64,000 bases of DNA from positions 277,501-341,500 of the forward strand of contig JAODUO010000193.1 of the NCBI GenBank assembly GCA_025642075.2, in the 5' to 3' direction. Below, piece after piece: positions 13,990-56,536 of the stretch. This DNA is from Ridgeia piscesae (lineage: Eukaryota > Annelida > Polychaeta > Sabellida > Siboglinidae). Below the pieces are notes generated by a model, which was not told the origin of the DNA, did no database searches, and saw only the letters and a program-made list of their open reading frames with translations. Every line of letters begins with the position of its first letter. Positions within the stretch are counted from its first letter, which is position 1. The translations under genes and the position numbers were made by a program.

Positions 13990-14559
13990 TCAGTAGGTGC
14001 TCTGAAGCGCCTGGAACTTGGCGAGCAGGTTGCGTGTCGTCCCCTGCTCGGGCAGTGGCTCAATGGCAGGTTCGTCCCCGCGTACAACGTCTGGGTTGTG
14101 TTGAGGCTCATTCTCAAACACTCCACCTTCCGGGGACAAGTTATCCTGGGTGTACTCCCCCAACAACCGATCATCGCACTCGTCCGCCTCAATGTTCGTG
14201 GCATGCCCATTACTGATAGGTGGCACCACCGTAGCTTTCCTCGCCGACACCTGCTGCACTGCTGCCCTCTGGATGCGGGTGCTGCGTTCGGGGCTCGGTG
14301 GCGGGATCGATGAATCTTCCATTTGGCGGAATTTTTCGAGGAGGTTACGGGTGTGCGCAACAGGAAGAACGGCCTCAACGTCTTCTTCTACATCCTGTTG
14401 CTCCATGACTTCATCTACGTCGTTGAAGTCATGTTGGTCCACATCGCTGCCGTCATCCATGTGGTGGTCGGTGTCGCCACCTGTTGACGAACTGCTCTGA
14501 CTCTTCGCAGATCCTGGTCGCAGTAGAAGTTTCGGTTCTTTCACTGTCCACTTGTATTG
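13990..14559 (-). CDS. LIMA1: LIMA1-like last exon with one full ENEP module
   Basis: The acceptor is GTCGACAG|CAATAC (14559). It codes for 189 residues and stops with TGA at 13990. It has HTRNLLEKF near the middle and, at 14005-14124, GVFENEPQHNPDVVRGDEPA followed by TTRNLLAKFQALQ. That second unit is the same module found six times in the 41-43 kb exon, so it is the direct link between the two parts of the locus. Acidic and Ser-rich spacers fill the rest. Confidence 0.88.
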   Translation of the reverse strand, partial: QYKWTVKEPKLLLRPGSAKSQSSSSTGGDTDHHMDDGSDVDQHDFNDVDEVMEQQDVEEDVEAVLPVAHTRNLLEKFRQMEDSSIPPPSPERSTRIQRAAVQQVSARKATVVPPISNGHATNIEADECDDRLLGEYTQDNLSPEGGVFENEPQHNPDVVRGDEPAIEPLPEQGTTRNLLAKFQALQSTY

Positions 14560-17500
14560 CTGTCGACACAACCACAGATCATTACAATCAATTATCAATC
14601 ATCTCTATTATAACATACAATAACTCACGCTTTTTTTGTCTGCCTTCTTTAAGTGAGGTTGGTTTCTTTGTGTGAAGTCAGCCACAGTGGTTACTTATTA
14701 ACAGGGTATTTACTAAATAAGTATTGTGTGTAGGAACGTTGCAAATGCACTGAAAATGAAAAGGCCTTGCAGTTAATCCAGTTCGAAGCCATATCTTTCA
14801 GAATATGAATGTACTGTTTACAATTTATAAATATTATGATTCATATAGCAAAGTTTGGTTTGGGACACGTTTTAGCACTTCTTAATCCAATTTTTTATCT
14901 AAGATAATCTCTAAAGGTTTTCATTCTTAGATTTTTTAATATATCACAATATTAACACGATCAGTAAGTAGATCATTCAGTTGTATTCCAATCTTTGCAA
15001 CCAAACACAGTAATTACAACATAATTTCAAAACCAGTACAGTAGTGTATTAAATAATTTACTGGTCATAGATAAAAATCAAAAGAAAATAACTTAAATCA
15101 CTGCCAACAAAAAGTGACAACAATTTCTTTCTCTTTCAATGCAGTGATATGGTTTCTTGGTTCACGTTATTTAGTAAATTATTTACCTCTCAAAAACGTT
15201 TCTTGAGAGGTAAATAATTTGCTAAATAGTTTATTTATACTTTGTGGTAGTCTTAGTTTTCCGAAGGAGACAGAGGAGAGCCTTATTACCTTCTTTGTTG
15301 GTTGTGTATCCTTCTGCCCCGCTTGCTGCTCCAGACTCTGGAACTTGGCAAGGATGTTGCGGGTGTAACAGGGAGGGGGGAGACACTCCTCCTCTCTTCC
15401 GTCGTTCTCCGCCTCGTCGTCCGTCGCTGCCATCCGCACCACCTCCACTGGCTCCATCTGGTGGAAGCTGCACGCCGGATCCGACTGTCGTTTCTGCATC
15501 TTTGGCTTCACCGGAAACATGGCCTTCACTTCATTCTGCTGCTCCAACGTGCGCCACCTGGCGAGCAGATTCTTCGTCAATCCGTATTCTGGGAACTCTC
15601 CTTCCAGATACTTCTCCTGGCTGTCGGGGCGGATCACCTCCGGCTGGTGCTCGACCTCCACGTCACCATTGGCAACAACAGTATCAGTGGCGCCCAGATT
15701 CGGGGCACTGTGGGAGGCTTCGGCGGGCACGGCGAAGGGCTTCTTGATGGATTTAGTCGGGCTCAGTGGCGGGGCGTTCACATCTTCCATCGAGCGGAAC
15801 TTTGCGAGGATGCTCCGGGTTTTCTCTGGCTCCGGCAGTTCCTCGGCTTTTACGTATTCGTTCGACGACTTCACGATGTCTGGATTTATCACCTCTTGGT
15901 CTTCTTCCTCCTCATCTTCCTCCTCATCATCTGCGGCGCCGTTTATCTGTGCATCTTCGATACTTTCCCTCAGTAGATCGCGAGGTGGTGTGATGCGGTG
16001 CACTGGCTTCCAGCGAGGTGACATCGGTGGGGGCGACTCCACCTCACCGTACTCCTCTCTGTGGGCAAACTTCGCAATGAGGTCACGGGTGGAGTCAGGT
16101 GACATCACTACCTCCTCCTCTTCCTCCTCTTCAGGATGGTTGACGGGAGGCGGGTGTGACGTGTCCTTGGGTTTGTCCCACTTGGACACTCGCTTCGGGG
16201 AGACGGGGCTGGGGAACATGGGCGGGGCATTGTGACTGATGTCCTCGAACCGTGTCCTCACTGATGACATCTCCGAGAAGTGAATCTGAAAGGTGAACAT
16301 TGCAAAATAATAGACTTGGCTGGGAAATGTCATTATTTTATTTTATATATTCTGAGACAGAAACATTGCAAGTTTTTAATGTATTTCTAGTGATTAAAAT
16401 CCAAAATTCAGCCTAAAAAACTGTGAAGTATTTAGTAGTAATTAAATAAATTTATTTTCTTCACAACAGATCATTTATCATATTGGTTATTACTAATAAA
16501 AAGAGCCAGAGACCAAAGACTAAGTAGAGTTGCAAACACCAACAATGGTGACATGGTCTAGGGACAGAGCGGTGGAGTGATACGTTCAATGGTGACAAGG
16601 TCTAGGCACAGAGAGGTGGAGTGATACGTTCAATGGTGACAAGGTCTAGGCACAGAGAGGTGGAGTGATATGTTCAATGGTGACAAGGTCTAGGGACAGA
16701 GAGGTAGAGTGATACGTTCAATGGTGACAAGGTCTAGGCACAGAGAGGTAGAGTGATACGTTGAATGGTGACAAGGTCTAGGCACAGAGAGGTAGAGTGA
16801 TACGTTCAATGGTGACAAGGTCTAGGCACAGGGAGGTGGAGTGATACGTTCAATGGTGACAAGGTCTAGGGACAGAGAGGTGGAGTGATACGTTCAATGG
16901 TGACAAGGTCTAGGCACAGAGAGGTGGAGTGATAGTTCAATGGTGACAAGGTCTAGGGACAGAGAGGTGAGTGATACGTTCAATGGTGACAAGGTCTAGG
17001 CACAGAGAGGTGGTGATACGTTAATGGTGACAAGGTCTAGGCACAGAGAGGTGAGTGATAGTTCAATGGTGACAAGGTCTAGGACAGAGAGGTGGAGTGA
17101 TACGTTAATGGTGACAAGGTCTAGGCACAGAAGGTAGAGTGATACGTTCAATGGTGACAAGGTCTAGGCACAGAGAGGTAGAGTGATACGTTCAATGGTG
17201 ACAAGGTCTAGGCACAGGGAGGTGGAGTGATACGTTCAATGGTGACAAGGTCTAGGCACAGAGAGGTGGAGTGATACGTTCAATGGTGACAAGGTCTAGG
17301 CACAGAGAGGTGGAGTGATACGTTCAATGGTGACAAGGTCTAGGCACAGGAGGTGGAGTGATACGTTCAATGGTGACAAGGTCTAGGCACAGAGAGGTGG
17401 AGTGATACGTTCAATGGTGACAAGGTCTAGGCACAGAGAGGTGGAGTGATACGTTCAATGGTGACAAGGTCTAGGGACAGAGAGGTGGAGTGATACGTTC

Positions 17501-20500
17501 AATGGTGACAAGGTCTAGGCACAGAGAGGTAGAGTGATACGTTCAATGGTGACAAGGTCTAGGCACAGAGAGGTGGAGGATACGTTAATGGAGTCTAGTT
17601 GAAGGGGGAGTGAACGGAATGGTCAATTAGGCACAGAGGTAGAGTGATATGTTCAATGGTGACAAGGTCTAGGCACAGAGAGGTGGAGTGATACGTTCAA
17701 TGGTGACAAGGTCTAGGGACAGAGAGATGGAGTGATACGTTCAATGGTGACAAGGTCTAGGCACAGAGAGGTGGAGTGATACGTTCAATGGTGACAAGGT
17801 CTAGGGACAGAGAGGTGGAGTGATACGTTCAATGGTGACAAGGTCTAGGCACAGAGAGGTGGAGTGATATGTTCAATGGTGACAAGGTCTAGGCACAGAG
17901 AGGTGGAGTGATACGTTCAATGGTGACAAGGTCTAGGCACAGAGAGGTGGAGTGATACGTTCAACTCCAATGGCAACATGAGTGAGTGAGTAAATTTTCC
18001 AAGCGACCAGGTGGACCCTTGTTACAAGGACCTCTGGAAGGACCCGAAGCCTTACCTCCTCCTTCTCCCTCGTCTCATGAGCAATCTCTTGGTCCTGATC
18101 CACTTGGTCCTCGGTCTCATTGAAGTGGAACACTTCTGCCTGGCTGCTGTAGCACAGACAAACACAACTGGTAGTTCTTGTACAAGGCTGACTCTATTCT
18201 CTATAGTCGCCTTCAGACATAAGCACAAGGGACAAGAGAGAGGTCTTGATTTGCAGTTACTGGTTTTGATTAACAAAACATTACTGGGTACATTAATGAT
18301 GATAAAATGTGTAGCTTCCATGATGTGCAGTTGATTTTATGTTGATTTTACAAAGTGCATACATTTTACTAATCAAAATGTCAGTGAATCTACTTTGATT
18401 CCTTGGTTGTGTGGCTGTCTAATGTGTGGATCACAACATTCAGAGGTGAACCACTTTTACCCTTTTCTCTCAGAATATCAACAAGTCCACTCAGCATCAT
18501 TAAAGATAATATCACAGCTGGTCAGCTGATTTAATCAAAATAAGACGACACATCAACATATCTGAACATGAAAGTGGACAGTAGAGATTTTATTTTTCAC
18601 AAACAAATTCTAAGCCACCATAAAAGTGTTGTAATTGTTCCAATAAATTGTTGTCTGTCCCACAAACTCACCTGTATCCATCCACTTCAGCTGCGGCATT
18701 CGGCGAAGGTGTTTTCTTATTTGCAGCTTCATCTTCTAAAAGAAAGACAGACATTTTGAGATTTGTCAGATAAACATTTGTAGGGTATTACTACTAATGA
18801 TTACTATTATTAGGGTGTTATTACGAGTGGGAACGCACTGCAAACTGTTGACCTTGTATGGGGAAGGACTAGAGTAACACAGTTGGATGCCAGGGAGGTC
18901 ATGCATCTATCCAAGCTTTTCACAACACGTCTCAGAAATCAGTGAAATACTTAGGTTGATATGAAAATATTAAGAAAAGCACACAAATGTAACATATATA
19001 GATACTGTTGGTAGATTAACTGTACCTACAATCATTCAGTAATCCATTATGCATAACTAACAGCAGCTGAAATTAGGAATGTTTAGTATATGTGCACTAA
19101 TATGATAATGTTACATACAAACATTGGGTTTCATCCAAATGGCTGAAGCAACACAGGTGTTTAACGGCCCACAAGACATCAAGTCACATATTGTTTACAC
19201 ACTGGTATATCACATGACAATGGCTAGACAGGTGTTTTTTTAATCTTTTTTTAACAAAAGAACTTTCATTAAACCAAGCATCTATACTGCCACTACTATT
19301 TTTCAGGTAAAACAACAATTACACTCACTCAAAAACAGCCATTTTGTCACAAGTAGGAGCGTTTATTGACTGAATCCTCATGAGAAAAATATGTTCTGCC
19401 AAGTCAGAACAGACCTGAAAGTGTCCATAATAGAAAGGTTTACTTGTGACGTAACCACACTGAGCCTTGGCTTTTATTTCTCACACATCTGATCAGGATG
19501 TGGACTGTTGCCAGCAGAATAGTTGTTTATCTTCCTGCCTGATGCAGAGTCCACACTATTTTCACAAGTTTTTCTCCTGCTTTCCGGAACTAACATTAGA
19601 AATCACTGATGTTGCGCAAAACATCTGCAAATAGACATACATTCCACAGGCAGATTAGCCTAAATCAAAACATGTTTGCTGAGAAAAAAAGTAGACTTTA
19701 TCTAAACTGGTTATCTTAGTCGTTAACAACTTCTAGCCCATAAAAAAATGGATTAATGGTAATACATAATCTGGGATAACTTTCTAATGTCTGTCAACCA
19801 AATAACAACCAAGAAGATAAGTGTGTTGGCACTTCATGTTCAGCCATCATCTGCTGTGATTCTGTGTTCACCACAAGTCCACAACCCACCTGAGGCAGTG
19901 TCCACAAGGCATGGAGGCACAGTTGGATGATCTACATCAGGGTGAATGACATCGTGATGCAACTGGCGATACCATGAGGGTGTCTTACGCTTGGCCGTTG
20001 CACATGACTTGCCCTTTGACCTGACCTGTTTTCCCATCATTGGTGTACGCTTGTTGCCACTTTGTGCACTTGGCATGTTTATGACCATGATGTCACATAA
20101 TTATATCTCAACATTCTCCTGTGCCAATGTCCAACAAATCAAACCATGTGGACAATTTGGCAGTTCTGATTACTTTGTCTTTGAATAATTTCTTTTTCAG
20201 TTAAGTCACAAAACAGTCGTTCTTCAGAATTGTTGACAATCTACTGTTTTCCATCGATCTGGACAAGAAAAACAAATCGTCCCAGGATAAACGGATGATG
20301 ACTGCTTTCTCTTGCGTTGTTGACATACAGGCTGCAGCAGAGCTTCAATGCACCTGGGTGTAACCGATAGTCTTCCTTAAACACAGGATGCCTTATAACT
20401 GTCTTCACACTTTCAGTCCTCTACTCCAAGAGGCCAACATTGCTCCATGCATTGTGATGACAAGGCCACCACAACATTTCCCCAAAAGTTTTCCCTGTTT

Positions 20501-23500: not shown

Positions 23501-26500
23501 CAAGACCTATAGTTGATTGGTCAAATGTTGTTCGTTTCATGAAGCTATACTCCAAAGTAAGTTAAATTCTTACAAATTAACACAACATTACAACACGGAA
23601 CAATCCACTTAAAATAAAAATAAATAATATAGCAAATACAAATCCATCGAAATATGTGTTCAAAAGGATATAAAAATGTGTAGGAAAAAGTTCTGAACAT
23701 TTGGAAATATCTATAGAAACTGGGTGGGGTAGTCACCTGGAATAACTACGTTTAAAGCCATTTAAGCTGAGCGACCTTCATACTTTGCAGGTAAGCCATG
23801 CTAGATCATGCGCATTATAGCAAATTTCTCTTCTTCGGTGCACCACGAAACTGCGTTAATCTGCCCTGATTTCAGTTATAGAACAAAAACAATCAACAAT
23901 GCCATGTGCATTCAGATTTAGAAAGAAACATTCCAGGGTTGCCAGGCATTTCAGAGGTTATAATATGTCCATTTCCATGCTTACGTGCCAATAGGACTCA
24001 CCATGAAGTAGTTGATAAAACCACCATGAGATATTGGATAGGATTCATTGAGACAGCATTGTCTCTGCCAAAAGTCACCTTTATTTAACAATATATTGCA
24101 CAAGTTTGTTACTCTGGGTAGCTTCCCAAAGCCTCGGCATTGCTGTGATGATTAGTGTGAACCATACTTTATGCCAGAAATGTTTTGTAAATAAGATGAC
24201 AATGAGGTTTTCTTAGTCAAAAAGTGGGCTAAATTAAAATGGATGAATTGGCAACCCCAGTTTGATTCAGTTCAGCATTTATATAGTGAGAATGCGTGGA
24301 CAAGCGTACTAGATAAATGGTGTAAATAAAACCAATTTCAATATAACTTGGTGACGTGTGCATTCTGTAGGCAGGCCACACCTCCACCATCGCTTTGCAG
24401 AATAATCAACCAATCAGCATCATACCTGACTTCGACTGCAATGGCCGAGCCTGCTTGTTCCAGCGTTTTGAATGCCGCTGCATGCCAAAGCCTTCCTCGT
24501 AATTCCCTGTTTGAATCGAGCAAGTTTAGCACCCAAACACATGCGAACAGCACACAAAGTAATGCACGCAGCACACAAAGTAATGCACGCAGCACACAAA
24601 GTAATACATACAGCACACAAAGTAATGCACATGAGGACAGGCGGTCCTGAAAAGTAGTGACAGAGCCAAAGATTTGTAACAGCATTAATCATTCAAACTA
24701 AACTCTAAAAACTTGTAGAATATTTCAAATTATTCTGAAAAACTAATTCATCCACAATTTACCTGTTGAAGAATAACAGTTGTTGCTATGATTTATGCAG
24801 TACAGTAGTAGCTGGGATGCGAAACGTTTCTTCAACAGTTAATTTTATGGGTAATCCTGTGTTTAAGTCCAAGTTTTGCTTGCTGTTAGCTTCATTAAAG
24901 TACATATTACAAGTGGCCTATAGTAACCCTTGACTGAAAAAATCTGTGTTTTTATTGAGAGCAGTTTAGCATGGAAATGACAAACATAAATCTTTTGGAC
25001 AGAAATATTAAAAAAAAAAGCTGGCAGATATACCACCAAAATTTTCACAATATAAGTGATATTCCAATTCTCTTTATCTATATGCTAATTTGTATGAACG
25101 GAGAATGATAATAAATTTGAATGTTTCTCATTCTATATGCTATCCTTATCACACGATCCGTAGATTTACAAATCCATAAAAACATGTTAAACATAAGAAA
25201 GATGATGTTGTGAGTATTAGTTAGTTAGTGCAACCAGTTAATAAAATACACACATTTGTTCAGATTGTAGAGAGATTCTTTGGCTTTTCGGTATTTATAA
25301 ACTGTAGTGAATTGGGGAAGAAAATAATATTAGTTAAAACTAACTACTCTGACACCGCTGGGATATAACTTGCTTTTTTGAATATCAAAAGATAATCTTT
25401 AACCCTTTAACTTATAAGAACAGCTTAATATCAATATATGACACCTTGCAAATGCAAATAATCCCGCAGAAAATACACATGCATCAGCAAAGTATTAATT
25501 GCAAAGACATATTTTACACCAGTAGGAAACCAAACCAGAATGCAGTTTTTCAGAATAGCAAATTTCCATTCAAAGCTTGCTTTAAGCATACACAGAAATA
25601 AGCCAGAGAAACCAAAGACATTCACCAATGTATTCATTCATTTTAACAACACTAAGATTACTGCATGTAAAATGCCGACACAAAAATTTATCTTCGCTTG
25701 GCTTAGATATAATCATGGAGGGAAAATATTACATGTTACACAAACTATACACAACACAAAATCCACAAAATGAATCTGTGAACTGTCTGGTTTGTGATCA
25801 TTTGTACATTTGTAGAGGTTGTATAAATAATAGTATTTCTGATACAGTATCTAAAGTTAGTTTGTTGATTAGCACAAAAGAAGTTACTTCAGACCCTGTG
25901 TACAGACAATGCCACGACACCAATCTTACCTTTTGTCTTGAAGAGTTCCATGAAGTGTGGCTTGCACAGAAGCTGTCCACTGATTGAAGCAAAGTTACCG
26001 AGGCTGAAAGAAGTAGTTGTACACTGAATACAAAGTTGAGAACATTGCAGCAGTGAGACATTCACAACATTGATTGTTTTATCAAAAAGTCTGCTAATAA
26101 TCAGTATTTTAATAAAATAAAATTATAGGTATTTTTTCAAATGTCTGTAATTTGATCACGTCTATAAGGACTACCCAGCATGTGTTGAGATGCTGAATAT
26201 TGTCAATGTGTGTCCAGCCATAGTAGAATAAGAATACTTTATTTAATCCCCACAGTGAAATTACATTTCTGCATGCATACAAATATAAACATGCAAAGAT
26301 AAATACCACACTAAAAATATATTAAAATCACAGTAAAACACAGATATAAACATTATAAAACATTATTGAAACATAAAATCCCACAAAAATATACCATAAT
26401 ATACCCTCATCCATTCATTACCACAGGGGGGGGGGTAATTGTTATTTCTAGTTCTACTTATCCACATGTTAAACTCATTGTTTGTCAAAGGCACAAGCAA

Positions 26501-26772
26501 ACCACCATATTGTGTTGTTCTAACCCTTGGCACTCTAAAACGTCTGCTGCGTTGAATGATTTTTTGTCAAAGTTCATCTTCAGTGGCTGTGTGTCACCGT
26601 AGAATACTGCTATCATCAACCTACACTTAGGACACGTTCCGTACCTAAGCACACGCTTGCAGTGGTTACATTTGAAGCAGGTCTTGTGGTAGATGACCTC
26701 ATCGGCAATCACCTTCTCCATCGCATACACCCGCTTCTGACACACGCGACACAGGTTCTCTCCTGACACCTG
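13990..26772 (-). CDS. LIMA1: LIMA1/EPLIN-like protein, LIM domain and C-terminal half
   Basis: Minus-strand exons are 26645-26772, 25930-26003, 18672-18735, 18056-18146, 15290-16285 and 13990-14559 (TGA). Every junction keeps phase. The product has one LIM zinc-binding domain, a short acidic linker and a long disordered tail with six TRNLLAKF-type motifs. The LIM residues (VYAMEKV, CFKC, SLGNFAS, CKPHF, LFKTKG) resemble EPLIN/LIMD2 LIM domains, known for actin bundling and adherens-junction and stress-fibre roles. Residues upstream of the LIM come from exon 36658-36825 (phase 0 to phase 0) or from an alternative first exon. Whether this is the same gene as the 41-56 kb exons is unproven. The vertebrate NYDEGFG block after the LIM is not present in this splice form. 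Confidence 0.8.
15169..15227. repeat. 25-bp intronic hairpin
   Basis: Arms 15169-15193 and 15203-15227 pair with one mismatch across a 9-nt loop. The arms contain TTTACCTCTCAA and TTGAGAGGTAAA. It sits about 60 bp inside the intron after the donor at 15290. The rest of this intron (14560-15168) is AT-rich with nothing else recognised. Confidence 0.9.
15290..16285 (-). CDS. LIMA1: LIMA1-like 332-residue exon with four TRNLLAKF motifs
   Basis: The exon starts after CACCTTTCAG in phase 0 and ends AAG|GTAATA in phase 0. It begins IHFSEMSSVRTRFEDIS, close in style to the short EPLIN-family motif with (K/R)xMFE. Long Glu/Asp runs and SPxxSP segments suggest phosphorylated disordered protein. Motifs STRDLIAKF (about 16093), KTRSILAKF (15823), LTKNLLARW and YTRNILAKF each end a segment that starts with a (V/I)xVVR- or VIRP-like phrase. 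The antisense frames open across it are shadows. Confidence 0.88.
16541..17966. repeat. 44-bp minisatellite, about 32 copies
   Basis: The unit begins AATGGTGACAAGGTCTAGGC and continues ACAGAGAGGTGGAGTGATAC, GTTC. Copies are over 90% alike by eye, with single-base deletions in the middle (16920-17130) and one scrambled copy near 17580-17630. It fills most of the intron between exons 18056-18146 and 15290-16285. Confidence 0.95.
18056..18146 (-). CDS. LIMA1: LIMA1-like acidic exon with NAGNAG acceptor
   Basis: It reads SSQAEVFHFNETEDQVDQDQ and continues acidic to EKEE, with donor GAG|GTAAGG. The acceptor is TACAGCAG: use of either AG (exon start 18146 or 18143) keeps the frame and adds or removes one Ser, the usual NAGNAG situation. 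Confidence 0.88.
18672..18735 (-). CDS. LIMA1: LIMA1-like linker exon (EDEAANKK)
   Basis: The acceptor is TTCTTTTAG, the text (E)DEAANKKTPSPNAAAEVDGY, and the donor CAG|GTGAGT. Entry is phase 1 and exit phase 2. It can be reached in frame from the LIM exon (25930) and from the two candidate first exons (22622 and 19890), so it is the common acceptor of several isoforms. Confidence 0.85.
18736..19889. other. Intron, nothing recognised
   Basis: Unique-looking AT-rich sequence between the linker exon and the candidate first exon at 20.1 kb. No repeat or coding segment could be supported. Confidence 0.6.
19890..20088 (-). CDS. Candidate alternative first exon (MVINMPSAQSG)
   Basis: ATG lies in a good context (ATCATGG), with an in-frame stop 15 bases upstream. 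It opens 66 codons rich in Lys, Arg and Ser (GNKRTPMMGKQVRSKGKS), then LVDTAS, and ends TCAG|GTGGGT in phase 1. That phase fits the linker exon at 18735 exactly and would give a LIM-less protein of about 639 residues. Splice phase and donor strength are seen; use as a first exon is inferred. Confidence 0.45.
21604..21818 (-). CDS. Candidate alternative last exon after the LIM domain
   Basis: A strong acceptor (TTATTTTTCTGTAG) opens phase 1, which fits the LIM exon ending at 25930. It then reads 70 codons to TGA in AT-rich sequence, where such length is unusual. The phrase DEGIYHITCKS resembles the DxGxYxC region of immunoglobulin-like domains, with spacing shifted. AATAAA on the minus strand lies near 21440. 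It could equally be a fragment of an unrelated gene or element. Confidence 0.35.
22622..22691 (-). CDS. Candidate alternative first exon (MSVGMFGLPVRY)
   Basis: ATG (GCCATGA) is followed by 23 codons: MSVGMFGLPVRYVKHWTWIE, then DDK, ending AAAG|GTATAC in phase 1. It fits the linker exon at 18735 and would give a LIM-less protein of about 596 residues. The text looks coding, but the donor is not strong. Confidence 0.45.
22692..25929. other. Intron, mostly unique AT-rich sequence
   Basis: No exon supported here. A 21-bp repeat (four copies of AGCACACAAAGTAATGCACG plus C) lies at 24549-24632 and creates spurious open frames on both strands. Confidence 0.6.
25930..26003 (-). CDS. LIMA1: LIM domain exon, second zinc finger
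   Basis: After the acceptor CTTTCAG, the exon reads (S)LGNFASISGQLLCKPHFME, then LFKTK, and ends G|GTAAGA. CKPH supplies the last two zinc ligands, so the joined domain has all eight (C-C-H-C-C-C-C-H). The exit phase is 1, matched by the exons at 18735 and 21818. Confidence 0.92.
26645..26772 (-). CDS. LIMA1: LIM domain exon, first zinc finger
   Basis: It reads GENLCRVCQKRVYAMEKVIA and continues to HKTCFKCNHCKRVL, ending AG|GTACGG (26645). Metal ligands seen are Cys-x2-Cys, 17 residues, His-x2-Cys, then Cys-x2-Cys of the second finger. The acceptor is TTGTTACAG at 26773. A second CAG directly follows, so the exon may start at 26772 or 26769, with one Gln more or less. The acceptor itself is the last unit of the large repeat array to its right. 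Confidence 0.92.
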
Positions 26773-29420
26773 CTGTAACAACAACATCATCACCACGTCA
26801 TCACGACTGTTGTAACAACAACATCATCACCACGTCATCACGACTGCTGTAACAACAACATCATCACCACATCATCACGACTGTTGTAACAACAACATCA
26901 TCACCACATCATCACGACTGCTGTAACAACAACATCACCACGTCATCACGACTGCTGTAACAACAACATTGCAACATCATCATCACCACATCATCACGAC
27001 TGCTATAACAACAACATCATCACCACATCATCACAACTGCTGTAACAACAACATCATCACCACGTCATCACGACTGCTGTACACAACATCACATCATCAC
27101 CTGTGTAACACAACATCATCACATATGACTGCTGTAACAACAACATCATCACCACATCATCACGACTGCTGTAACAACAACATCATCACCACATCATCAC
27201 GACTGCTGTAACAACAACATCATCACCACATCATCACGACTGTTGTAACAACAACATCATCACCACATCATCACGACTGCTGTAACAACAATCATCACCA
27301 CATCATCACGACTGCTGTAACAACAACATTGCAACATCATCATCACCACATCATCACGACTGCTGTAACAACAACATCATCACCACATCATCACGACTGC
27401 TGTAACAACATATCACATCATCACACTGCAACATCATCACCACATCATCACGACTGCTTTAACAACATCATCATCACCACATCATCACGACTGCTGTAAC
27501 AACAACATCATCACCACATCATCACGACTGCTGTAACAATAACATCATCACCACATCATCATGACTGCTGTAACAACAACATCATACAATCATCACAACT
27601 GTACAATCATCATCACACATCATCACGACTGCTGTAACAACAACATCATCACCACATCATCAGACTGCTGTAACAACATCATCACCACATCATCACACTG
27701 CTGTAACAAAATCATCACCACATATCACGATGTGTAACAACATCATCATCACCACATCATCACGACTGCTGTAACAACATCATCACCACATCATCACGAC
27801 TGCTGTAACAACAATCATCACCATCATCACGACTGCGTAACAACATCATCACCACATCATCACATGTAACAACAACATCATACCACATCATCACTCAACA
27901 AAACATCACCACTCATCAGACTGCTGTAACAACAACATAGCAACATCATCATCACCACATCATCACGACTGCTGTAACAACAACATCATCACCACATCAT
28001 CATGACTGCTGTAACAACAACATCATCACCACATCATCATGACTGCTGTAACAACAACATCATCACCACATCATCACAACTGTTGTAACAACATCATCAT
28101 CACCACATCATCACGACTGCTGTAACAACATCATCATCACCACATCATCACGACTGCTGTAACAACATCATCACCACATCATCACGACTGCTGTAACAAC
28201 ATCATCATCACCACATCATCACGACTGCTGTAACAACAACATCATCACCACATCATCACGACTGCTGTAACAACATCATCACACATACACTGCTGTAACA
28301 ACATCATCACCACATCATCACGACTGCTGTAACAACACATCACCACATCATCAGACTGCTAACAATCATCACCACATCATCAGACTGCTGTAACAACAAC
28401 ATCATCACCACATCACACAAACAACATCATCACATCATCACGACTGCTGTAACAACATCATCACCACATCATCACGACTGCAGTAACAACAACATCATCA
28501 CCACATCATCACGACTGCTGTAACAACATCATCATCATCACACTACACATCAATCACCACTGCTGTAACAACAACATCATCACCACATCATCACGACTGC
28601 TGTAACAACAACATTCATCACCACATCATCACAACTGCTGTAACAACAACATCATCACCACATCATCAACTGTGTAACAACATTCACAACTCACAGACTG
28701 CTGTAACAACAACATGCAACATCATCATCACCACATCATCACGACTGCTGTAACAACAACATCATCACCACATCATCAGACTGCTGTAACAATCATCACC
28801 ACATCATCACCACTGCAAAAACATCATCACCACATCATCAGACTGCTGTAACAACAACATCATCACCACATCATCATGACTGCTGTAACAATAACATCAT
28901 CACCACATCATCATGACTGCTGTAACAACAACATCATCACCACATCATCACGACTGCTGTAACAACAACATCATCACACGACTGCTGTAACAACAACATC
29001 ATCACCACATCATCACGACTGCTGTAACAACATCATCATCACCACATCATCACGACTGCTGTAACAACAACATCATCACCACATCATCACGACTGCTGTA
29101 ACAACAACATCATCACCACATCATCACGACTGCTGTAACAACAACATCACACCACGACTGCTGTAACAACAACATCATAACATCGTCACGACTGTTGTAA
29201 CTAACGGCAACATCATCACCACATCATCACGACTGCTGTAACAACATCATCACCACATCATCACGACTGCTGTAACAACATAATCATCACCACATCATCA
29301 TGACTGCTGTAGCAACAACATCATCACATCATTATCACTGCTGTAACAACATCATCATCTTATCATCACGACTGATGTAACAACATCATCATATCATCAT
29401 AACTACATCATCATGACTGT
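26771..29420. repeat. 37-bp minisatellite abutting the LIM exon, about 70 copies
   Basis: The unit on the plus strand is AACAACAACATCATCACCAC, then ATCATCACGACTGCTGT. On the minus (gene) strand every unit ends TTGTTGTTACAG|CAG, which is exactly the splice acceptor of the LIM exon. The exon's own acceptor is the last unit. Copies from 27070 to 28800 carry many deletions and fragments, which may be real decay or consensus error. Confidence 0.95.
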
Positions 29421-36657: not shown

Positions 36658-36825
36658 CTTCCGGACACTCTCTGTAGGGGGCGCTATCGATGGTGGTGGG
36701 GACGGAAAATCAACGTCATCGTTCAAGTCGGCAGGTGGCGTAAATGTGAGCTTCTGGTAAGACTGATAGTCGGATTGACGTAATCGGGGCGGGGTCACTT
36801 CTCTCGGAGGCGTGAATCGGACAAG
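36658..36825 (-). CDS. LIMA1: Pro-rich exon upstream of the LIM domain
   Basis: The acceptor TTTTTCAG, 56 codons (LVRFTPPREVTPPRLRQSDY onward to SIAPPTESVRK), and donor AAG|GTGATG are in phase 0 at both ends. It can join exon 46749 upstream and LIM exon 26772 downstream in frame. This gives the bridge for a long isoform of about 1258 residues running from 56.5 to 14.0 kb that skips the 41-43 kb terminal exon. It has no in-frame ATG, so it is not a first exon. Confidence 0.65.
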
Positions 36826-39340: not shown

Positions 39341-39344
39341 TGCC

Positions 39345-40189: not shown

Positions 40190-40960
40190 ACAGGTTTCAA
40201 GAGCGTTCAGTAGTTTCGTCGGCAGCGACCGTGATCGCTCCAACCCCAACGCTTTATTTACTACAAGCATCCTACACAACAACAAACACATTTCTGTGGA
40301 AATGTTACGTCCATGTGGTTCAATGTTAAGCAAAGCACAGCTTTGACAGAACTGTTCGTCAACGATTGTTCAACGTACACAAGTTCGCGTTCACAAAGAT
40401 TTCTCCAACCTCGCAGTCCTTCTACATACACTTACGTACACCAGGTGGCGCACTTCACAGCATAGCCATCCACGTCAGAAAGTAGATCCGTAACAGCAGC
40501 GCAAGGATACAACACAAACTCAGTGAAAAGGTTTCTGTTTGTCACCGCTCAATCCCATCACTATCGCGCACAATGAAGATTGCTAATAAAATGCAGCATG
40601 CTAAATGACAAGTCGCGTTTGTGAAAACGCTTGTCTTTAGCATGAAAGCAAATGTGTCTAAATATTAAATCCACAGCGGCGAAGTTTCACGGCTTTTCTA
40701 CTGGCCGCGACAGTCACAAATTTGTTTCCAACGAACGAAGCAGCGATCGGAACGAGAAAGTCAGGTCAAGAAATTGTATGCGAATGCCGTTGCTATGGCA
40801 ACCGCGGTGAGTGCCGTCGCCAGGATATAGTTCTGGTGGCGGTGTGTCGCGACGGGCGGGCCGGGTTCACGCTGAGACGTGTGAGCGGGAGAAAGAAAGA
40901 GAGACGTCATTAATCACATGACAGGAGGGAGGGGACATTGTCATGGTCACGGAGCGGGTG
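40190..40960. promoter_or_regulatory. CpG-rich segment with RFX X-box, possible internal promoter
   Basis: CpG-dense sequence stands out between AT-rich flanks, about 0.3-1 kb past the stop of the 41-43 kb exon. It contains GTTGCTATGGCAAC (40789-40802), one base from the symmetrical RFX X-box consensus GTTGCCATGGCAAC. It could be a promoter for the downstream LIM exons (minus strand) or for a plus-strand transcript. No TATA box or first exon was fixed. Confidence 0.4.
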
Positions 40961-41211
40961 TCATCATTACACAAAGTCACTGTCTCATCCAATCGATGAC
41001 AGTCATATCACAGCAATGCTATTAGTTTGGGTCACATCCGGTTCGGGTCAGGTCAAATCGGGAGGGCAAAGGTCATCTAAGGAAGCAAGCAACTACAAGC
41101 GCTAACATAAGTTCTTAGTGTACTCCTGCCTGATTCACTCAACTGGAATAACTTTTATGCAGAACATTCGCGGCATCAACGTTGCATACACTTAGACCCT
41201 GTGACTACAGC

Positions 41212-43485
41212 TTAACACCAGTTCTCTTTGAATCGATACGGTTTCCTTCTCGTAGCTTTCACAGGTTCTGGCTCGGGTGTTTCAGGTGCCTTAGGCTTAG
41301 GCTTCACAGGAGGGGGCTTCTTTTTCCCACCATCCCATTTAGAAACGGGCCTACCCCTTAACGAAGGCCCCTCATCCATTTTCGTTCTTCCCTCACCCCA
41401 CTTCGGGTTTGTTTCTGACTGCTGCTCTATGTCACCCCCTTCCCACTTTGCTTTCACATCTCGACCTCTCACCTTACTCTCACCCCATTTTGGTTTTCCA
41501 TTGGCTGTCTGTGGCTGCACCTCAACAGGTGGGGTAACCTCTGCAGGCATTGCTTTAACCCCACCCCATCTAGGCCTCCCTCTTGGCTTAACCTCTGCTG
41601 GACTAGGCTCTGGCGTAACCTCTGGCTTAACCTCTGCAGGTTGTGTTTTACCCATACCCCACCTTGGCCGCCCTCTTGGCTTAACCTCTGCTGGACTAGG
41701 CTCTGGCTTAACCTCTGGCGTAACCTCTGCAGGTTGTGTTTTACCCACACCCCACCTTTGTCGCCCTTTTGGCTTAACCTCTACTGCACTAGGCTCTGGC
41801 TTAACTTCAGGGGGTTGTGTTTTACCCATCCCCCACCTACGTCTGCCCTGTGGAACCGGCGCAGGCTCCGGCTCACTAGGTGGAGCCTGCTCTTGTTTAC
41901 TCCCTCTATACTTTACTCCACGTCGCGGCACGCCAGTTTGTTTTACCGGCTCGGGCTCCTCGACTTCTGCGTCTCTCGCAGTTAGCACCGCAATCTTACG
42001 ACCAGGGCGGTTTCTAATTACCTCGGGTGTTTTCGTGCGCTGGTCATCATGGTGATGCTCGATGCTGCTCCACAATTTCTTCACCTCCTTAGTGTGCAGC
42101 TCCATTCCCGCCTCGCTGTTGTCATCGCCCTCACGAATCAGCTCCGGGCGCTCCTCGGGCTCGTTCTCGTAGACGCCCGAATCGGGCGCCGCATCCATCT
42201 CAAGAATCCACGCCGGCTTGCCGCTCATCGACGTGCTTGTCTTTGTGGTCGCGGCGTCCGCCTCGAAGTACTTCCACTTGTTCATGAGGCTGCGAGTGTG
42301 ACCGGAGTCGACCGAGACAATGTCACTCTGCATGTCGGCGCGCACGATGTTGTCGTCGAGCTGGATGGGTTCGTTCTCGACCACGCACGGTCCGTCCGCC
42401 CGGTCAATGACGATCTGACGTCGCTGGCGGGGGGCGTCCTGTGGGTTGCTGAAGCGGTTGGTCATGTTGCGGATGCGGCCACGCTCACCCGGAACCACCT
42501 CCTCCACGTAGGTGCTAGAGCGGACAATGTTTTCGTCGAGCATGCTCGGTTCGTTCTCGACAACCGACGGCCCGTTTTCAGCCAGATCCATCACAAACGG
42601 CTGCTTGGAGCCGCCGCTGCCTTGCGCCTGTTGCAGGAACTGGTTTCGCACCTGATTCACGCGAACGTCGATGTCGTCCATTTTTTTCTCAACGTTGACA
42701 TCATCCGTGCGTGTTGCCCAGTATCCCGTTAGGTTGCGGATCTTTCCGACCTCAAACTGGACATCGTCGTTGACATCTTCGCTGTGGACAACGTCGTCAC
42801 GAATCATCGGCTGGTTCTCCGCGACTATTGGCTCAGTGACATCACCCTCGATCAGCCGGATCTCTTTCTTCTGTGGCGCCTCCTGGCGAGTGCCCCACTT
42901 AGTAAGAACGCCCTTTGCATAGCCTCGCTTCGGCAGCTCCACCTCGTAGTTGTCCGGCATACCAGACTTGATGACGTCGTCACGGATAATCGGCTCATTT
43001 TCTCGCACACAGCCCTCATCCTCGGCGATATTGATGGGCACCTGCGCCTTGGGCTGGTACTGCCCCTTGTACTTCCAGTCGTTCACAATGTTCTTTGTCT
43101 TCCCCCTCTCGAAAGTCTCTCCGGACATGTTGACGTCGCTCGCACGCACAACGCCCTCTAGTTGCTGTGGATCGTTCTCGTAGACCCCGGAACCGGGCGC
43201 CTGGTCGATGTCAATGTGTGTGGTCTTCTTTATTTCGTGCAGATCAGGGATCTGACCGGACTCGAACATAGCACGGACATTGTGGGCAATGGGCGGGGGT
43301 GCGACCTTGTGGATCTCTTCACGGTTCACTGGCGGTGTTGATGGGACACCCTTCGAATTGACGTTCTGGTTGTGATCCTGCGAAATTTGCGTCAAGGGTG
43401 GCAGAGGTTTGTTCTCTTGGGCATGGACCGCCCAACTCTTTTTAGGCTGAGACTTGGGCTTTGGCTGCTCGACAGGATAAGACAC
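41212..43485 (-). CDS. Large terminal exon with six ENEP modules and RWGxGK repeats
   Basis: The acceptor ACATTTGCAG precedes VSYPVEQPKPKSQPKKSW, and 757 codons end with KPYRFKENWC and TAA. Modules (start-end on the plus strand): 43075-43188, 42895-43014, 42718-42828, 42451-42567, 42274-42387 and 42070-42177. Each reads roughly (V)(Y/V)ENEP, 4-5 residues, D(D/N)(V/I)V(R/H), 12-16 residues, then G-x-(T/I)-(R/K)-N-(L/I/M)-x3-(W/F). From about 41850 down to 41330 seven RWGxGK or KWGExK units alternate with EVKPEPSPAEVKPRGRP. No good donor precedes the stop, so this looks like a true 3' end. The long antisense frames (41228-42732, plus strand) are shadows. Confidence 0.88.
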   Translation of the reverse strand: MSYPVEQPKPKSQPKKSWAVHAQENKPLPPLTQISQDHNQNVNSKGVPSTPPVNREEIHKVAPPPIAHNVRAMFESGQIPDLHEIKKTTHIDIDQAPGSGVYENDPQQLEGVVRASDVNMSGETFERGKTKNIVNDWKYKGQYQPKAQVPINIAEDEGCVRENEPIIRDDVIKSGMPDNYEVELPKRGYAKGVLTKWGTRQEAPQKKEIRLIEGDVTEPIVAENQPMIRDDVVHSEDVNDDVQFEVGKIRNLTGYWATRTDDVNVEKKMDDIDVRVNQVRNQFLQQAQGSGGSKQPFVMDLAENGPSVVENEPSMLDENIVRSSTYVEEVVPGERGRIRNMTNRFSNPQDAPRQRRQIVIDRADGPCVVENEPIQLDDNIVRADMQSDIVSVDSGHTRSLMNKWKYFEADAATTKTSTSMSGKPAWILEMDAAPDSGVYENEPEERPELIREGDDNSEAGMELHTKEVKKLWSSIEHHHDDQRTKTPEVIRNRPGRKIAVLTARDAEVEEPEPVKQTGVPRRGVKYRGSKQEQAPPSEPEPAPVPQGRRRWGMGKTQPPEVKPEPSAVEVKPKGRQRWGVGKTQPAEVTPEVKPEPSPAEVKPRGRPRWGMGKTQPAEVKPEVTPEPSPAEVKPRGRPRWGGVKAMPAEVTPPVEVQPQTANGKPKWGESKVRGRDVKAKWEGGDIEQQSETNPKWGEGRTKMDEGPSLRGRPVSKWDGGKKKPPPVKPKPKAPETPEPEPVKATRRKPYRFKENWC

Positions 43486-52400: not shown

Positions 52401-55400
52401 CCACAGTCACACTCTTCCCAGAAGTGCCAGTGCCTACCACCCCTGCGGATCTAAATAAGGAAGATAGGGCAATCAGCTGTATCAGCGTTCAGTTGTCCGT
52501 CCTTTCAGTGCTACCCACGCTTGGTTTCTGCAGGAAACACTTCCATGCTAATGAGTGTGACAGTTCCTACGTTTTAATATTACATTCTTATGACTACAAT
52601 ATGAATGTTGATGGAATTTACTGCCTGCCAATCTGTGTTAAGTTACTTTATTAAGCTCAGAGCAATGTTTGCAATTTGAAAGATTTTGCTTGCAACATGT
52701 TCAAATGGTAAACAAAACATCCATGTTAAACATGTTTAACTTTCCCACATTCTAGATAGCAGACTTACTGTTACAAATTACTGCTCGGCCAAATCTCGGC
52801 AGGAGCTGTGGCCCTCCCTTTAAGCAGCATTACGCAGTGTTTATAATAACACTTTTTGCAGCTAAATCCTCATAAACCAACTGGTAAGTTTCAAATCCAA
52901 TAAGCAATATTAAAGACAGGTCTTTCACAGATGAATGCATATGCCTGGGAGCTAACATTGATATGCAAGGTTATAAATTAAAACACTCTCCATATTCGCT
53001 TAACACAGAAATATTCCTGTAATAGTAATTTTTACCTGTTTTACATTTAATTAATTACAATTAATTAATGGAAGTATTTCTATCAGATGCAGGTATGTGC
53101 AAGGACTGACATCGCACAGACATAAACTTAATGTGTCTTCATCCCAGAGATGAAACCAGATCGAAATCAGATATGTAACAAGAAAACAGCAGCAGCAAGC
53201 CAGGGCGGGGCCACCACAAGGAAGTGACCATCCTGCCAGCCTTAGAGTAAACCAGGGCAGCCAACAGGGCACATAACTGTTCCCTTCCTTCTCCAGGGCC
53301 ATGGTCATGGTCAACAGCCCCTGCCCACCCCTCTCCATAAGGGGCTTCCTGTCCATGGCACATTCTCTAATCACAACTCAGGTTACTGGCCGGAATTAAC
53401 AGTTGCCATTGGCAGGAGCTGGTCCTGCACACCCCAGCAACACCTGTGTACAGGTGCACACTCCCTTTCCTGTGCCCTAATTCTCTCCTCGGTAATCTCC
53501 CAATCCCTGGCTGCACACGTTTCCCTGCACCTTTCTGCTCCTTCTACTTCTACACAGCATGTCCCCATTTCTTTAAGTTGACCACTATCGCAGTTCTTTA
53601 AGTTGACCACTACTGCAGTTGTTTAAGTTGACCACTATTGCAGTTGTTTAAGTTGACCACTATTGCAGTTGCTTAAGTTGACCACTATTGCAGTTGTTTA
53701 AGTTGACCACTATTGCAGTTGTTTCAGTTGACCACTATCGCAGTTCCTTAAGTTGACCACTATTGCAATTGTTTAAGTTGACCACTATCGCAGTTGTTTA
53801 TGTTGACCACTATTGCAGTTGCTTAAGTTGACCACTATTGCAATTGTTTAAGTTGACCACTATTGCAGTTGTTTAAGTTGACCACTATTGCAGTTGTTTA
53901 AGTTGACCACTATTGCAGTTGTTTAAGTAGACCACTAATGCCGTTGTTTAAATTGGCCACTACTGCAGTTGTTTAAATTGGCCACTATTGCAGTTGTTTA
54001 AGTTCACCACTAATACAGTTGTTTAAGTTCACCACTAATACAGTTGTTTAAATTGGCCACTACTGCAGTTGTTTAAATTGGCCACTACTGCAGTTGTTTA
54101 AGTTCACCACTAATACAGTTGTTTAAATTGGCCACTTCTGCAGTTGTTTAAGTTCACCACTAATACAGTTGTTTAAATTGTCCACTACTGCAGTTGTTTA
54201 AGTTCACCACTAATACAGTTTTTTAAAATTTGGGTCCACTACTGCAGTTGTTTAAGTTCACCACTAATACAGTTGTTTAAATTGTCCACTACTGCAGTTG
54301 TTTAAGTTGACCACTAATACAGTTGTTTAAATTGTCCACTACTGCAGTTGTTTAAGTTGACCACTAATACAGTTGTTTAAATTGGCCACTACTGCAGTTG
54401 TTTAAATTGGCCACTACTGCAGTTGTTTAAGTTCACCACTAATACAGTTGTTTAAGTTCACCACTAATGCAGTTGTTTAAATTGGCCACTACTGCAGTTG
54501 TTTAAGTTCACCACTAATACAGTTGTTTAAATTGTCCACTACTGCAGTTGTTTAAGTTCACCACTAATACAGTTGTTTAAATTGGCCACTATTGCAGTTG
54601 TTTAAGTTCACCACTAATACAGTTGTTTAAATTGGCCACTACTGCAGTTGTTTAAGTTCACCACTAATGCAGTTGTTTAAATTGGCCACTACTGCAGTTG
54701 TTTAAGTTCACCACTAATGCAGTTGTTTAAATTGGCCACTACTGCAGTTGTTTTAATTGGCCACTAATGCAGTTGTTTAAATTGGCCATTATATTGTTTA
54801 AGTTGGTAATAGTTTACTACCACTAACTGGCCACTACTGCAGTTGCTTCGTGATTTGTATAAACACATTTTGTTTGTTTATCATTTCAAAATAAACCTTA
54901 TTTGTTATTGGCAATGTTTTGCTATCTATATCTGTGGCATATTTCGCAATTGATCTACCTTCCTTCCTAAAACCACCTAAAGTCATCAAGTATTCCACCA
55001 TGATGTCATTGTTACACAAAAGCGCTAACACACACATAAGCTAGGCACCATGGATTCAATTTCTGTCTGTTTACAGGAATGACAGGACTGAATTATGTTG
55101 CCCTGACTTCTAATGTAAATTTTTTGTTTGTAATTTTTTGTTTTCAAACCAGAAGCAGATGGCCGAAAACTTTGTTTTACCCCTTTTCCACCTGCTCGCA
55201 TCATGCACACAGATCACATCATTCCATTACTGACGGGCTCAAACAAGCATCTGAAACATTTGCAGCAAATAACTTGTGCAAATGATTTGTCACGCACCAA
55301 CATATAACCAGGAGCACAACCGAATCTTACCTTTGGAACCCAGACTTGGCCAACTTTCACGAATCCCAATGACGGCTTTGATTTGACCTTTTTGGTCTTC

Positions 55401-56536
55401 ACTTTGAAGTTGTATCTACCGACAGAGGGGGGAGGAGGGGGCAGTGGCAGGTCTTCGGTTTCCGGGTTCTGTGCCTCTCTGTTCTGTGCGTTCCACTTGG
55501 GCAGGTTTTGCAGCCAGCGCTGTGGCAGACTCTGTGTTGGCGATTCCAGCATCATCTTCGGCTTTGTCTCGCTCTTAAACAGTTTCGGTGGATTGCTATT
55601 GCCAATGTTTGGTGTGGGCGGCTTCGGTAGGGTCGCCGGTGCTTGCTTCGGGCTTGTCGGACTGTAAATGTTCAGTTTCTTCGCGCTACGCTTCAGATCC
55701 CTCGGTTTGAAAAGCGGGTTCTGCGGCGTGGGTTTCGGTGACGTCTGCTGAAGATTGTTTTGTTTCTGAACGTTGATCTGACACTGTTGCTCCTTTGACT
55801 CGATGCTGCGAAGCGGGAATCGAATTTTACTCACCGATCCATTGAGCAGTTTCGGCTTCATGCTACAACCGTTTTCGAGAGGCTCTTCTTTGTGAAGCTC
55901 GCTCATACCAGGTAGCGCCACCGGCTTCAGGTTTTCGCGGCCCTGCTGCATGCCCAGCTTATGCTTGAGCGAGTCGACGCGTGTCGGTGGTGGCGGGTTG
56001 CTGGGACCGGATTTTTTCCGCAGTTTAACTCCTTCCAGCATGAAACCAGCTTTCTTGAAGTTTGTCTGGACAGGGGGCGACAGAATCTGTGGCATCGGGG
56101 GAGGGGGCAGGGGGATGTTGGACTCACCGTTGACGGCAGGCATGGCCGGTGGTGGTGGAGGCATCCCGGATGACTTCTGCCACTTGGATTTCTGTTGCCA
56201 CGGGAAGCACGGTTCGTGACTCTTGTCACCGTCAGCTAAGTCACAGATACCGTTGAAACCGTTCTGGAAGGTGTCTGGTCGCAGTTCTCTTTCAACTTCT
56301 GCTACTTTCTTGCCGAGCGAAACCTGTGCCACTGCTTCCATACAAAGAGCACTGCTCCTGGATTCTGGTTTTTTCTCGCAGAAGAATTGCTTGTTCTTGA
56401 ATGCGGATGGCTTAACGTTGCTGTCAGAGAACATCATGTGGTCAAAGTCAGAAACGTCGCAGTCACTCGGTGTCGTTAATTCCTCATCAGAATAGCACAT
56501 GCGAATCTCAGATTTAAATCCCACAGTTTTGAACAT
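41212..56536 (-). CDS. EPLIN-like proline-rich protein with ENEP module repeats, 1319 residues
   Basis: Minus-strand exons are 55331-56536, 48413-48778, 47819-47882, 46749-46798 and 41212-43485 (TAA). All junctions keep phase and the ATG has a promoter upstream. Residues 1-402 are proline-rich (PPPPPAMP at 125-131, LPLPPPPP at 363-370), typical of profilin or EVH1 ligands, with a degenerate WH2-like stretch GFMLEGVKLRKKS near 164-176. Residues 403-562 are acidic. The last exon has VRAMFESG (about 633-640), resembling EPLIN's MFEKGE, six ENEP modules (662-1034) and RWGxGK repeats (1109-1278). A cytoskeletal scaffold role is inferred. I do not recognise a named orthologue. Shared modules tie it to the LIM exons 3' of it. 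Confidence 0.75.
41330..41850 (-). repeat. 81-93-bp coding tandem repeats (RWGxGKTQP)
   Basis: RWGxGK and KWGExK units recur with peptide spacings 27, 31, 31 and 27 residues. The first four copies are alike at the DNA level (TTTTACCCATACCCCACCTT on the plus strand), so they expanded recently by unequal exchange. Confidence 0.85.
44294..44384 (-). promoter_or_regulatory. Candidate internal TATA promoter and non-coding first exon
   Basis: Minus-strand GTATATAGCC (TATA element about 44378-44384) lies in a GC-rich patch, followed 80-90 bases later by AACAG|GTTGGT (44294). No ATG lies between, so it would make a 5' leader that splices to 43485 or 36825. In the former case the first in-frame ATG is in VRAMFESG. 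Supported only by motifs. Confidence 0.35.
45083..45612. other. CAG-repeat segment with open frames on both strands
   Basis: On the minus strand ATTTACTTTGCAG (an acceptor-like sequence at about 45327) precedes a frame with MEKKNTGFVVKKSNSRKAK, then a run of 13 Gln encoded by mixed CAG/CAA (about 45204-45243). On the plus strand 45385-45612 is also open (EPIHTILHKTRRVQISDGAR). Neither is recognised. It may be a decayed gene copy or element fragment inserted in the intron. Confidence 0.3.
46749..46798 (-). CDS. Short exon PVNRSVSSGQHAVQLK
   Basis: The acceptor GTGCAGACAG and donor AAG|GTAAGT give entry phase 1 and exit phase 0. It joins equally well to the terminal exon at 43485 or to the exon at 36825. 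That makes it the likely branch point for the two 3' ends. Confidence 0.7.
46978..47420. other. Intron patch with CpG-bearing unique sequence
   Basis: Between exons 47819 and 46798. It has scattered CGCG words (TCGCGTTCGG, CAACGCGTTG) unlike its AT-rich setting, perhaps an old DNA-element insertion. No termini were found. Confidence 0.25.
47819..47882 (-). CDS. Short exon IPDVATTNGVISPESNAVDG
   Basis: The acceptor TTATTTCAG and donor GTG|GTGAGT frame 21 codons plus one base. Entry is phase 0 and exit phase 1, which fits the next exon at 46798. Confidence 0.8.
48413..48778 (-). CDS. Acidic Ser/Pro-rich exon, 122 residues
   Basis: The acceptor CCTTCAG, text AAAAVSWEDMEPTGDLIDIV continuing acidic and Ser-rich to HDDVHR, and donor CGC|GTAAGT are all clear. 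Phase is 0 at both ends, so it is a cassette that could be skipped without frameshift. Confidence 0.85.
48779..49234. other. Intron start with CCACA microsatellite
   Basis: A short ACCAC/AGCAC microsatellite lies at 48841-48880. Otherwise nothing is recognised. Confidence 0.6.
49236..49552. repeat. 14-bp minisatellite (GGGCCAGGTGAGAC)n
   Basis: About 22 copies. The unit length makes open frames on the minus strand (WPVSPGPSHLARLT type), which are artefacts. On the plus strand each unit holds CCAGGTGAGA, a match to the 5' splice-site consensus, but that is the antisense strand of the gene. Confidence 0.95.
49553..53560. other. Large intron, no exon supported
   Basis: AT-rich unique sequence with a (ACTGAC)8 hexanucleotide repeat at about 52107-52158 and G/C patches at 52260-52340 and 53200-53560. 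No frame with splice sites was found. Confidence 0.6.
53566..54845. repeat. 25-bp minisatellite with higher-order structure, about 50 copies
   Basis: The left third is a uniform type, TTTAAGTTGACCACTATTGC plus AGTTG. From about 53926 two variants alternate: one with AAGTTCACCACTAATACAG and one with AAATTGGCCACTACTGCAG, giving many 50-bp dimers. One copy at 54215-54240 has a short insertion. It lies in the intron after the first coding exon. Confidence 0.95.
55331..56536 (-). CDS. First coding exon, 402 residues, proline-rich
   Basis: It starts MFKTVGFKSEIRMCYSDEEL, has GMPPPPPAMPAV and IPLPPPPMPQ, many SPxxP phrases, and ends VGQVWVPK at AAG|GTAAGA. Cysteines are few and there is no signal peptide or membrane segment, so it is a cytoplasmic, largely disordered protein. 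The open frame past 55331 to 55214 is intron read-through. Confidence 0.85.

Follow-up and report, generated by a model that had tools for sequence, protein, structure and literature searches.

Introduction

The EPLIN class comprises LIMA1, XIRP2 and LIMD2, in which a LIM domain is combined with a 22-residue EPLIN motif (PMC3305314). In mouse Xirp2, the Xin repeats are encoded by exon 7, and a short isoform lacks exon 7 and has the LIM domain (PMC10259482). As for the origin of Xin, a 2008 study placed it in the vertebrate lineage before lamprey, Xin being absent from amphioxus, tunicate, fly, mosquito and worm in that work (PMC2478706). Moreover, a short linear actin-filament motif (SFM) is given as VxxLxxxFE (Lifeact, ITPKA), with positions P1 and/or P8 being essential (PMC13364712).

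The locus described here lies in a 64,000-nucleotide stretch of DNA from the annelid Ridgeia piscesae (the window) and, judged by its sequence, is an EPLIN-class gene. As in the rest of the class, it has a single LIM domain, closest to those of EPLIN and LIMD2, with an EPLIN motif directly after it, whereas its LIM exons are flanked by two arrays of an unnamed repeat of 40 residues, for which Pfam scans gave no family. It resembles Xirp2 in having a large repeat exon upstream of the LIM exons and in its predicted LIM-less and LIM-bearing ends; in contrast, its repeat is not Xin, a second array lies downstream of the LIM domain, and the exon with the first array extends into a conserved tail. 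Mollusc proteins (Aplysia LOC101856472, Littorina, Mercenaria LOC123536284, Solemya and Argonauta LOC115217577) likewise combine 6-7 copies of the module with LIM and the EPLIN motif, but their array stands before LIM and none follows it, while the window has arrays on either side of the LIM exons.

Locus and gene model

The minus strand held the whole gene, for which a scan of exon borders gave eight predicted exons with AG/GT borders (43485-42022, 36825-36658, 26769-26645, 26003-25930, 24506-24426, 18135-18056, 16285-15290 and 14559-13990). Joined, these read as a single open frame of 1185 residues, the only stop being the one that closes 14559-13990. In this model 43485-42022 is an internal exon, and the protein start was not found; the N-terminal parts of the relatives P0009, P0019, P0035, P0036 and P0037 gave no match at 46.7-56.5 kb. 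We infer both the exon borders in the window and the joins in this animal. The candidate features are the following (P numbers denote proteins).

42022..43485, minus strand: array-1 exon, with an FE-box, five full modules and a half module (HMM matches, acceptor and donor flanks, relatives P0002-P0009)
43278-43255, minus strand: array-1 FE-box VRAMFESG, within the 42-kb exon
41212..42021, minus strand: read-through tail of the array-1 exon, with RPRWG repeats and a stop, a putative LIM-less 3' end (tail identity with P0002, P0003 and P0004)
36658..36825, minus strand: exon LVRFTPPREVTPPR..., the sequence found directly after array 1 in P0009 and P0037 (tblastn); length a multiple of three, phase 0
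26645..26769, minus strand: LIM domain, first exon (Pfam LIM on the joined exons; tblastn)
25930..26003, minus strand: LIM domain, second exon (eight-ligand LIM pattern on the in-frame join)
24426..24506, minus strand: EPLIN-motif exon, NYEEGFGMQRHSKRW (tblastn with P0015 and P0016; phmmer with P0019)
18056..18135, minus strand: exon ending in HETREKEE, a link to the FE-box exon (phmmer with P0019, i-Evalue 8.8e-4, collinear; phase)
15290..16285, minus strand: array-2 first exon, with the FE-box IHFSEMSSVRTRFE (16285-16244) and two to four partial modules
13990..14559, minus strand: array-2 last exon, with one weak and one full module and the stop codon

The acceptor at 18135 was selected for phase, which its near neighbour 18143 breaks. 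Poly-A signals were too frequent beyond these candidate 3' ends to discriminate between them.

The joined LIM exons matched the Pfam LIM family (PF00412) with an E-value of 2.4e-12 and 47.3 bits, vs. a cut-off of 22.9. When the LIM domain was taken together with the adjacent EPLIN motif, the top match among solved structures was EPLIN (2d8y, 2.8e-26), followed by LIMD2 (2lzu, 1.5e-24) and CRP1 (9.2e-18), so that, of the 17 distinct PDB sequences reaching E<=1e-6, EPLIN ranked first and LIMD2 second, a ranking that covers solved structures only. The stretch KGNYEEGFGMQRHSKRW comes right after LIM, and the alignment with EPLIN 2d8y runs on through KGNYxEGFG; the EPLIN motif of the window was assigned by likeness and not against the table of the 22-residue motif. 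These matches bear out the original prediction of a LIMA1-like locus.

The repeated module

The module, of 40 residues, reads roughly GV(F/Y)E(N/S)xP-x4-DVVR-x10-14-LPExGx(A/T)(K/R)N(L/I/M)xx(K/R)(F/W). A profile built from five copies in the 42-kb exon was matched at E<=1 by three of the 1188 six-frame ORFs (>=30 aa) of the window, with E-values of 3.1e-107 for the 42-kb ORF (which holds the training copies themselves), 2.9e-8 for that at 14 kb and 9.7e-6 for that at 15-16 kb. The 14-kb module, as had been expected from the outset, therefore scores with the 42-kb modules. The best 14-kb copy reached 21.5 bits vs. a maximum of 7.2 over 1000 shuffles, and the 15-16 kb exon 9.8 bits vs. a maximum of 8.9 over 1000 shuffles, which is a small margin; the observed best score was reached by 0/1000 shuffles for either downstream exon. 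Within the 15-16 kb exon, no single copy was significant with this profile (best i-Evalue 0.058), and a fourth copy near 16093-16067 scored below zero.

A combined profile was also built. Of its 110 copies, 68 came from ten upstream-type proteins, among them the array of the window, and 42 from eight proteins, seven of which are named molluscs. It was trained in part on the 42-kb copies, while the downstream copies were in no training set. Its consensus is GVFENEPVRREDVVRSDDVDEEELPERGTAKNLLSKWKTK. With it, five full copies (43188-43066, 43011-42889, 42825-42712, 42564-42445 and 42387-42268) and a half copy (42177-42112) were found in the 42-kb exon, so that the six copies claimed there stand as five full and one half, on the minus strand. 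In the 14559-13990 exon, the single full module reported earlier was recovered at 14124-14011 (i-Evalue 9.5e-18), together with a weak copy at 14355-14320 (0.059). For the 16285-15290 exon, three or four weaker copies had been proposed; two partial ones were significant (15889-15788, i-Evalue 5.8e-4, and 15649-15548, 1.8e-7), while the remaining two, the fourth copy mentioned above and one at 15367-15335 (i-Evalue 0.19), were very weak. In the joined model, the combined profile found nine copies at an i-Evalue <0.01 and two weaker ones.

Pfam scans of five ORFs of the window, nine proteins and 30 relatives gave no family for the module, and the module profile had no match at E<=10 among solved structures (PDB). 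The repeat was not described in the literature listed on EPLIN, LIMA1 and Xin or on the carrier genes, bioRxiv preprints and most subscription journals being outside this scope. Three other matches were judged to be due to chance: HrcA_DNA-bdg in Pfam (5/30 members, best E-value 3.4e-5, P0013 scoring 17.4 bits vs. a cut-off of 21), DUF4167 in Pfam (3/30 members, best E-value 0.0062) and isochorismate lyase (three PDB chains with E-values of 0.46-0.49 vs. the array 1 sequence).

Two subtypes of array

For a held-out comparison, the upstream-type profile was rebuilt from 58 copies without the window and without P0002, its nearest relative. The full 42-kb copies scored 51.8, 43.1, 45.9, 34.9 and 48.1 bits with this profile vs. 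33.6, 33.1, 24.8, 20.0 and 17.7 bits with the mollusc-type profile. In contrast, the full 14-kb copy scored 37.3 bits with the upstream type vs. 58.2 with the mollusc type. The half copy of the 42-kb exon was slightly reversed (17.8 upstream-type vs. 20.0 mollusc-type). From these scores, array 1 (the 42-kb exon) and array 2 (the two downstream exons) are of different subtypes, and two arrays of different subtype flank the LIM exons in the window. The original prediction had seen one module array in two alternative 3' ends, a view that gives way to this arrangement.

The 3' ends of array 1

In the relatives P0009 and P0037, array 1 leads straight to VRFTPPRE, as encoded by the 36.8-kb exon, and their C-termini matched that exon with E-values of 2.6e-10 and 1.2e-5, respectively (tblastn). 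The donor GAG|GTAATT at 42022/42021 fits this join, so that the 42-kb exon need not be terminal. It had been described as the terminal exon at 41-43 kb; the reading frame does continue past the donor to a stop at 41212, while the internal donor leaves the terminal position as one of two outcomes. The tail beyond the donor was 74%, 61% and 63% identical between the window and P0002, P0003 and P0004, respectively, vs. shuffle maxima of 39, 38 and 35%, while the much shorter tail of P0007 was at shuffle level (36% identity vs. a maximum of 47%). The tail comparison alone was used here, as the shuffle control for the array part misbehaved (with end gaps left free, its maximum was 100% in P0003 and 50% in P0007). 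Given the VRFTPP join in P0009 and P0037 and the tail in P0002-P0004, both ends of array 1 therefore look real. Moreover, a third LIM-less end is possible, because P0009 and P0037 stop soon after VRFTPP. For the join from the VRFTPP exon to the LIM exons in the window, the evidence is the phase.

Within the coding tail, three 93-bp tandem copies at 41530-41805 give rise to the RPRWG/KPEPSPAEV repeats, whose copy number varies among P0002-P0004 by eye.

Relatives and the link between LIM and array 2

Candidates in the protein searches had to be 0.55-1.75 times as long as the query, and two of these searches scored just those with the most shared words. A search with an alignment that contained P0009 returned 3 proteins, one of them P0009 itself, its words probably being swamped by low-complexity N-termini. 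The survey of carriers reached molluscs and brachiopods. The named relatives were Aplysia, Littorina, Arion, Candidula, Solemya, Crassostrea, Mercenaria and Argonauta among molluscs (snails, bivalves and an octopod) and the brachiopod Lingula; the lineages of Lingula and Solemya were looked up. The repeat family thereby spans molluscs and a brachiopod; the Pfam scans gave no family for it, and its named carriers are annotated as uncharacterised, hypothetical or unnamed.

Among the 37 proteins fetched, the array-1 FE-box VRxMFESG was found in 10, VRFTPP in 2, and LIM with the EPLIN motif in 7. The module accordingly occurs both with and without LIM in relatives, as foreseen (7/37 and 30/37, many of the latter being partial). 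Six mollusc proteins with LIM and the EPLIN motif, from Aplysia, Littorina, Solemya, Mercenaria (two isoforms) and Argonauta, had 6 or 7 modules before a LIM domain lying near the end of the protein. Up to 19 modules per protein were found among the 37 (P0031 and P0036); in P0036 (1251 aa, JGI), the nineteen modules have a period near 60 residues, and their final aromatic residue is usually Tyr vs. Phe/Trp by eye.

The JGI protein P0019 (751 residues from a 2683-base contig, starting without Met) holds LIM, the EPLIN motif, REKEE, an FE-box and array 2 in this order. Its stretch from the EPLIN motif to the FE-box matched the 24.5, 18.1 and 16.2 kb exons of the window in order (phmmer i-Evalues of 3.3e-4, 8.8e-4 and 0.074), and its part before LIM had no match in the window. 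Because P0019, a relative and not this animal, carries both in the exon order of the window, LIM and array 2 would belong to one gene. An LPSIRxxKSRFE-like segment was also observed in P0019 (between the EPLIN motif and the FE-box), P0018 and P0035; it was not found in the window, where it may be lost or lie in an unrecognised exon.

A proposed multivalent F-actin ligand and its alternatives

On balance, the somewhat favoured explanation takes the locus as a single minus-strand gene, an EPLIN-class member of lophotrochozoan type, with the array modules acting as a multivalent F-actin ligand. Such a gene would encode array 1 (about six modules), then LIM and the EPLIN motif, and then array 2. 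Alternative processing after array 1 would give either a LIM-less product with the RPRWG tail or a passage from array 1 to the 36.8-kb exon, perhaps continuing to LIM, while another product would carry LIM and array 2. Any splice connecting array 1 with LIM is likewise inferred. Furthermore, the module would be a disordered multivalent F-actin ligand whose C-terminal amphipathic helix docks weakly on the filament; tandem copies would sum to avidity, and LIM with the EPLIN motif would give targeting. Multivalent F-actin binding itself is presumed, with probabilities for and against about evenly balanced; if true, the module would be a natural multivalent filament ligand.

An AlphaFold model of array 1 with nine relatives was poor, with a mean pLDDT of 45, and showed a mostly disordered chain with short helices, some of which fell on the FE-box and on the C-termini of modules; it lends weak support to linear helical motifs within a disordered chain. 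Helices were placed at 65-76 (FE-box), 131-141 (module 1), 253-256 (module 3), 396-412 (module 5) and, past the half module, 458-484. Module 2 had three helical residues and module 4 none, and two helices (272-288 and 425-432) lay outside the modules. For the comparison with SFM, 279 module hits were taken from the 37 proteins and the joined model, of which 266 had letters at P1, P4 and P8, and 13 were dropped for gaps; these rows are not independent, as they include related proteins and isoforms, and the window is counted twice. P4 was L/I/M/V in 250/266 rows and P8 was F/W/Y in 265/266, while P1 was V/I/L in 12/266 and P9 was acidic (E/D) in 0/266, so the module is at best partly SFM-like. 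The module helix thus retains the hydrophobic P4 and the aromatic P8 of SFM; in contrast, its P1 is mostly Ala/Thr, its P9 mostly Lys/Arg/Gln, and it has an extra conserved half, E(N/S)xP...DVVR.

The departures at P1 and P9 speak for an alternative whose probability falls a little short of even, in which the arrays bind a partner other than actin (for example a septin, a catenin or a membrane protein) and LIM provides the cytoskeletal link. The most invariant parts of the module are E(N/S)xP...DVVR and G-x-(A/T)-(K/R), and we know of no actin motif that explains their conservation; the lack of a match between the module profile and the solved structures points the same way. However, P4 and P8 are nearly invariant, the proteins are of the EPLIN class, and the FE-boxes in module proteins end in FE, like the actin motif.

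The single gene may also be questioned, and two or three adjacent genes, rather unlikely on the present evidence, would consist of an array 1 unit (with the tail and VRFTPP ends) and either LIM with array 2 or array 2 alone as a local duplicate. An array-1 marker together with LIM and the EPLIN motif was seen in 0/37 fetched proteins, a count from searches whose length limits exclude most proteins holding all the parts. The FE-box and array-2 subtype of the window resemble the part of the mollusc proteins before LIM, and not after it, which counts against the one-gene layout, and array 2 is present but LIM absent in P0017, P0018 and P0035. Distances also favour separation, with about 10 kb between the 36.8-kb and LIM exons and 6 kb between 24.4 and 18.1 kb. 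Against it, P0019 holds LIM, the EPLIN motif, REKEE, the FE-box and array 2 in a single polypeptide, a reason not to place LIM and array 2 in separate genes; moreover, the predicted exons are in frame throughout, and all parts share one module and one strand.

A further reading, with the modules as divergent Xin repeats and an invertebrate XIRP as the gene, is improbable, despite the shared gene class, a layout similar to that of Xirp2 and a profile comparison that beat 200/200 column shuffles in each of three settings. Pfam identified Xin repeats in two stretches of the Xin sequence used. The signal consists of six residues (FENEP/FETQP), without which 57, 18, 99 and 26 of 150 shuffles reached the observed score in four settings, and the hhalign probability was at most 27%. 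In Pfam, no family at E<=10, and hence no Xin repeat (PF08043), was found for P0001, the array protein of the window, no Xin was found in 8 relatives, and PF08043 was absent from the 25 families listed, out of 39, for the 30 relatives. Homology with Xin is not claimed, because the signal is FENEP/FETQP alone.

In the predicted exon order, the repeat exon stands upstream of the LIM exons, from which LIM-less and LIM-bearing products are predicted. This layout bears on whether XIRP-like arrays first arose in vertebrates, the proposal made for Xin (PMC2478706), or are older in the EPLIN class. It is very doubtful, at the far end of such speculation, that the EPLIN-class gene of the bilaterian ancestor had a large tandem actin-side repeat exon beside its LIM exons, with LIM-less and LIM-bearing products, and that the Xin array of vertebrates, which published work dates to when the chambered heart arose, is a compressed remnant of the lophotrochozoan module.

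Other features of the window

A long, proline-rich ORF resembling a first exon (MFKTVGFKSE...) was observed on the minus strand at 56536-55331, and its stretch AGFMLEGVKLRKK resembles the WH2 actin-monomer motif by eye. This ORF had no Pfam match at E<=1, and no fetched protein links it to the EPLIN-class gene. Finally, two intron minisatellites were observed: one of about 74 copies of a 37-mer (26770-29392), directly upstream of the LIM exon, and one of 24 copies of a 44-mer (16543-17591), upstream of the FE-box exon.
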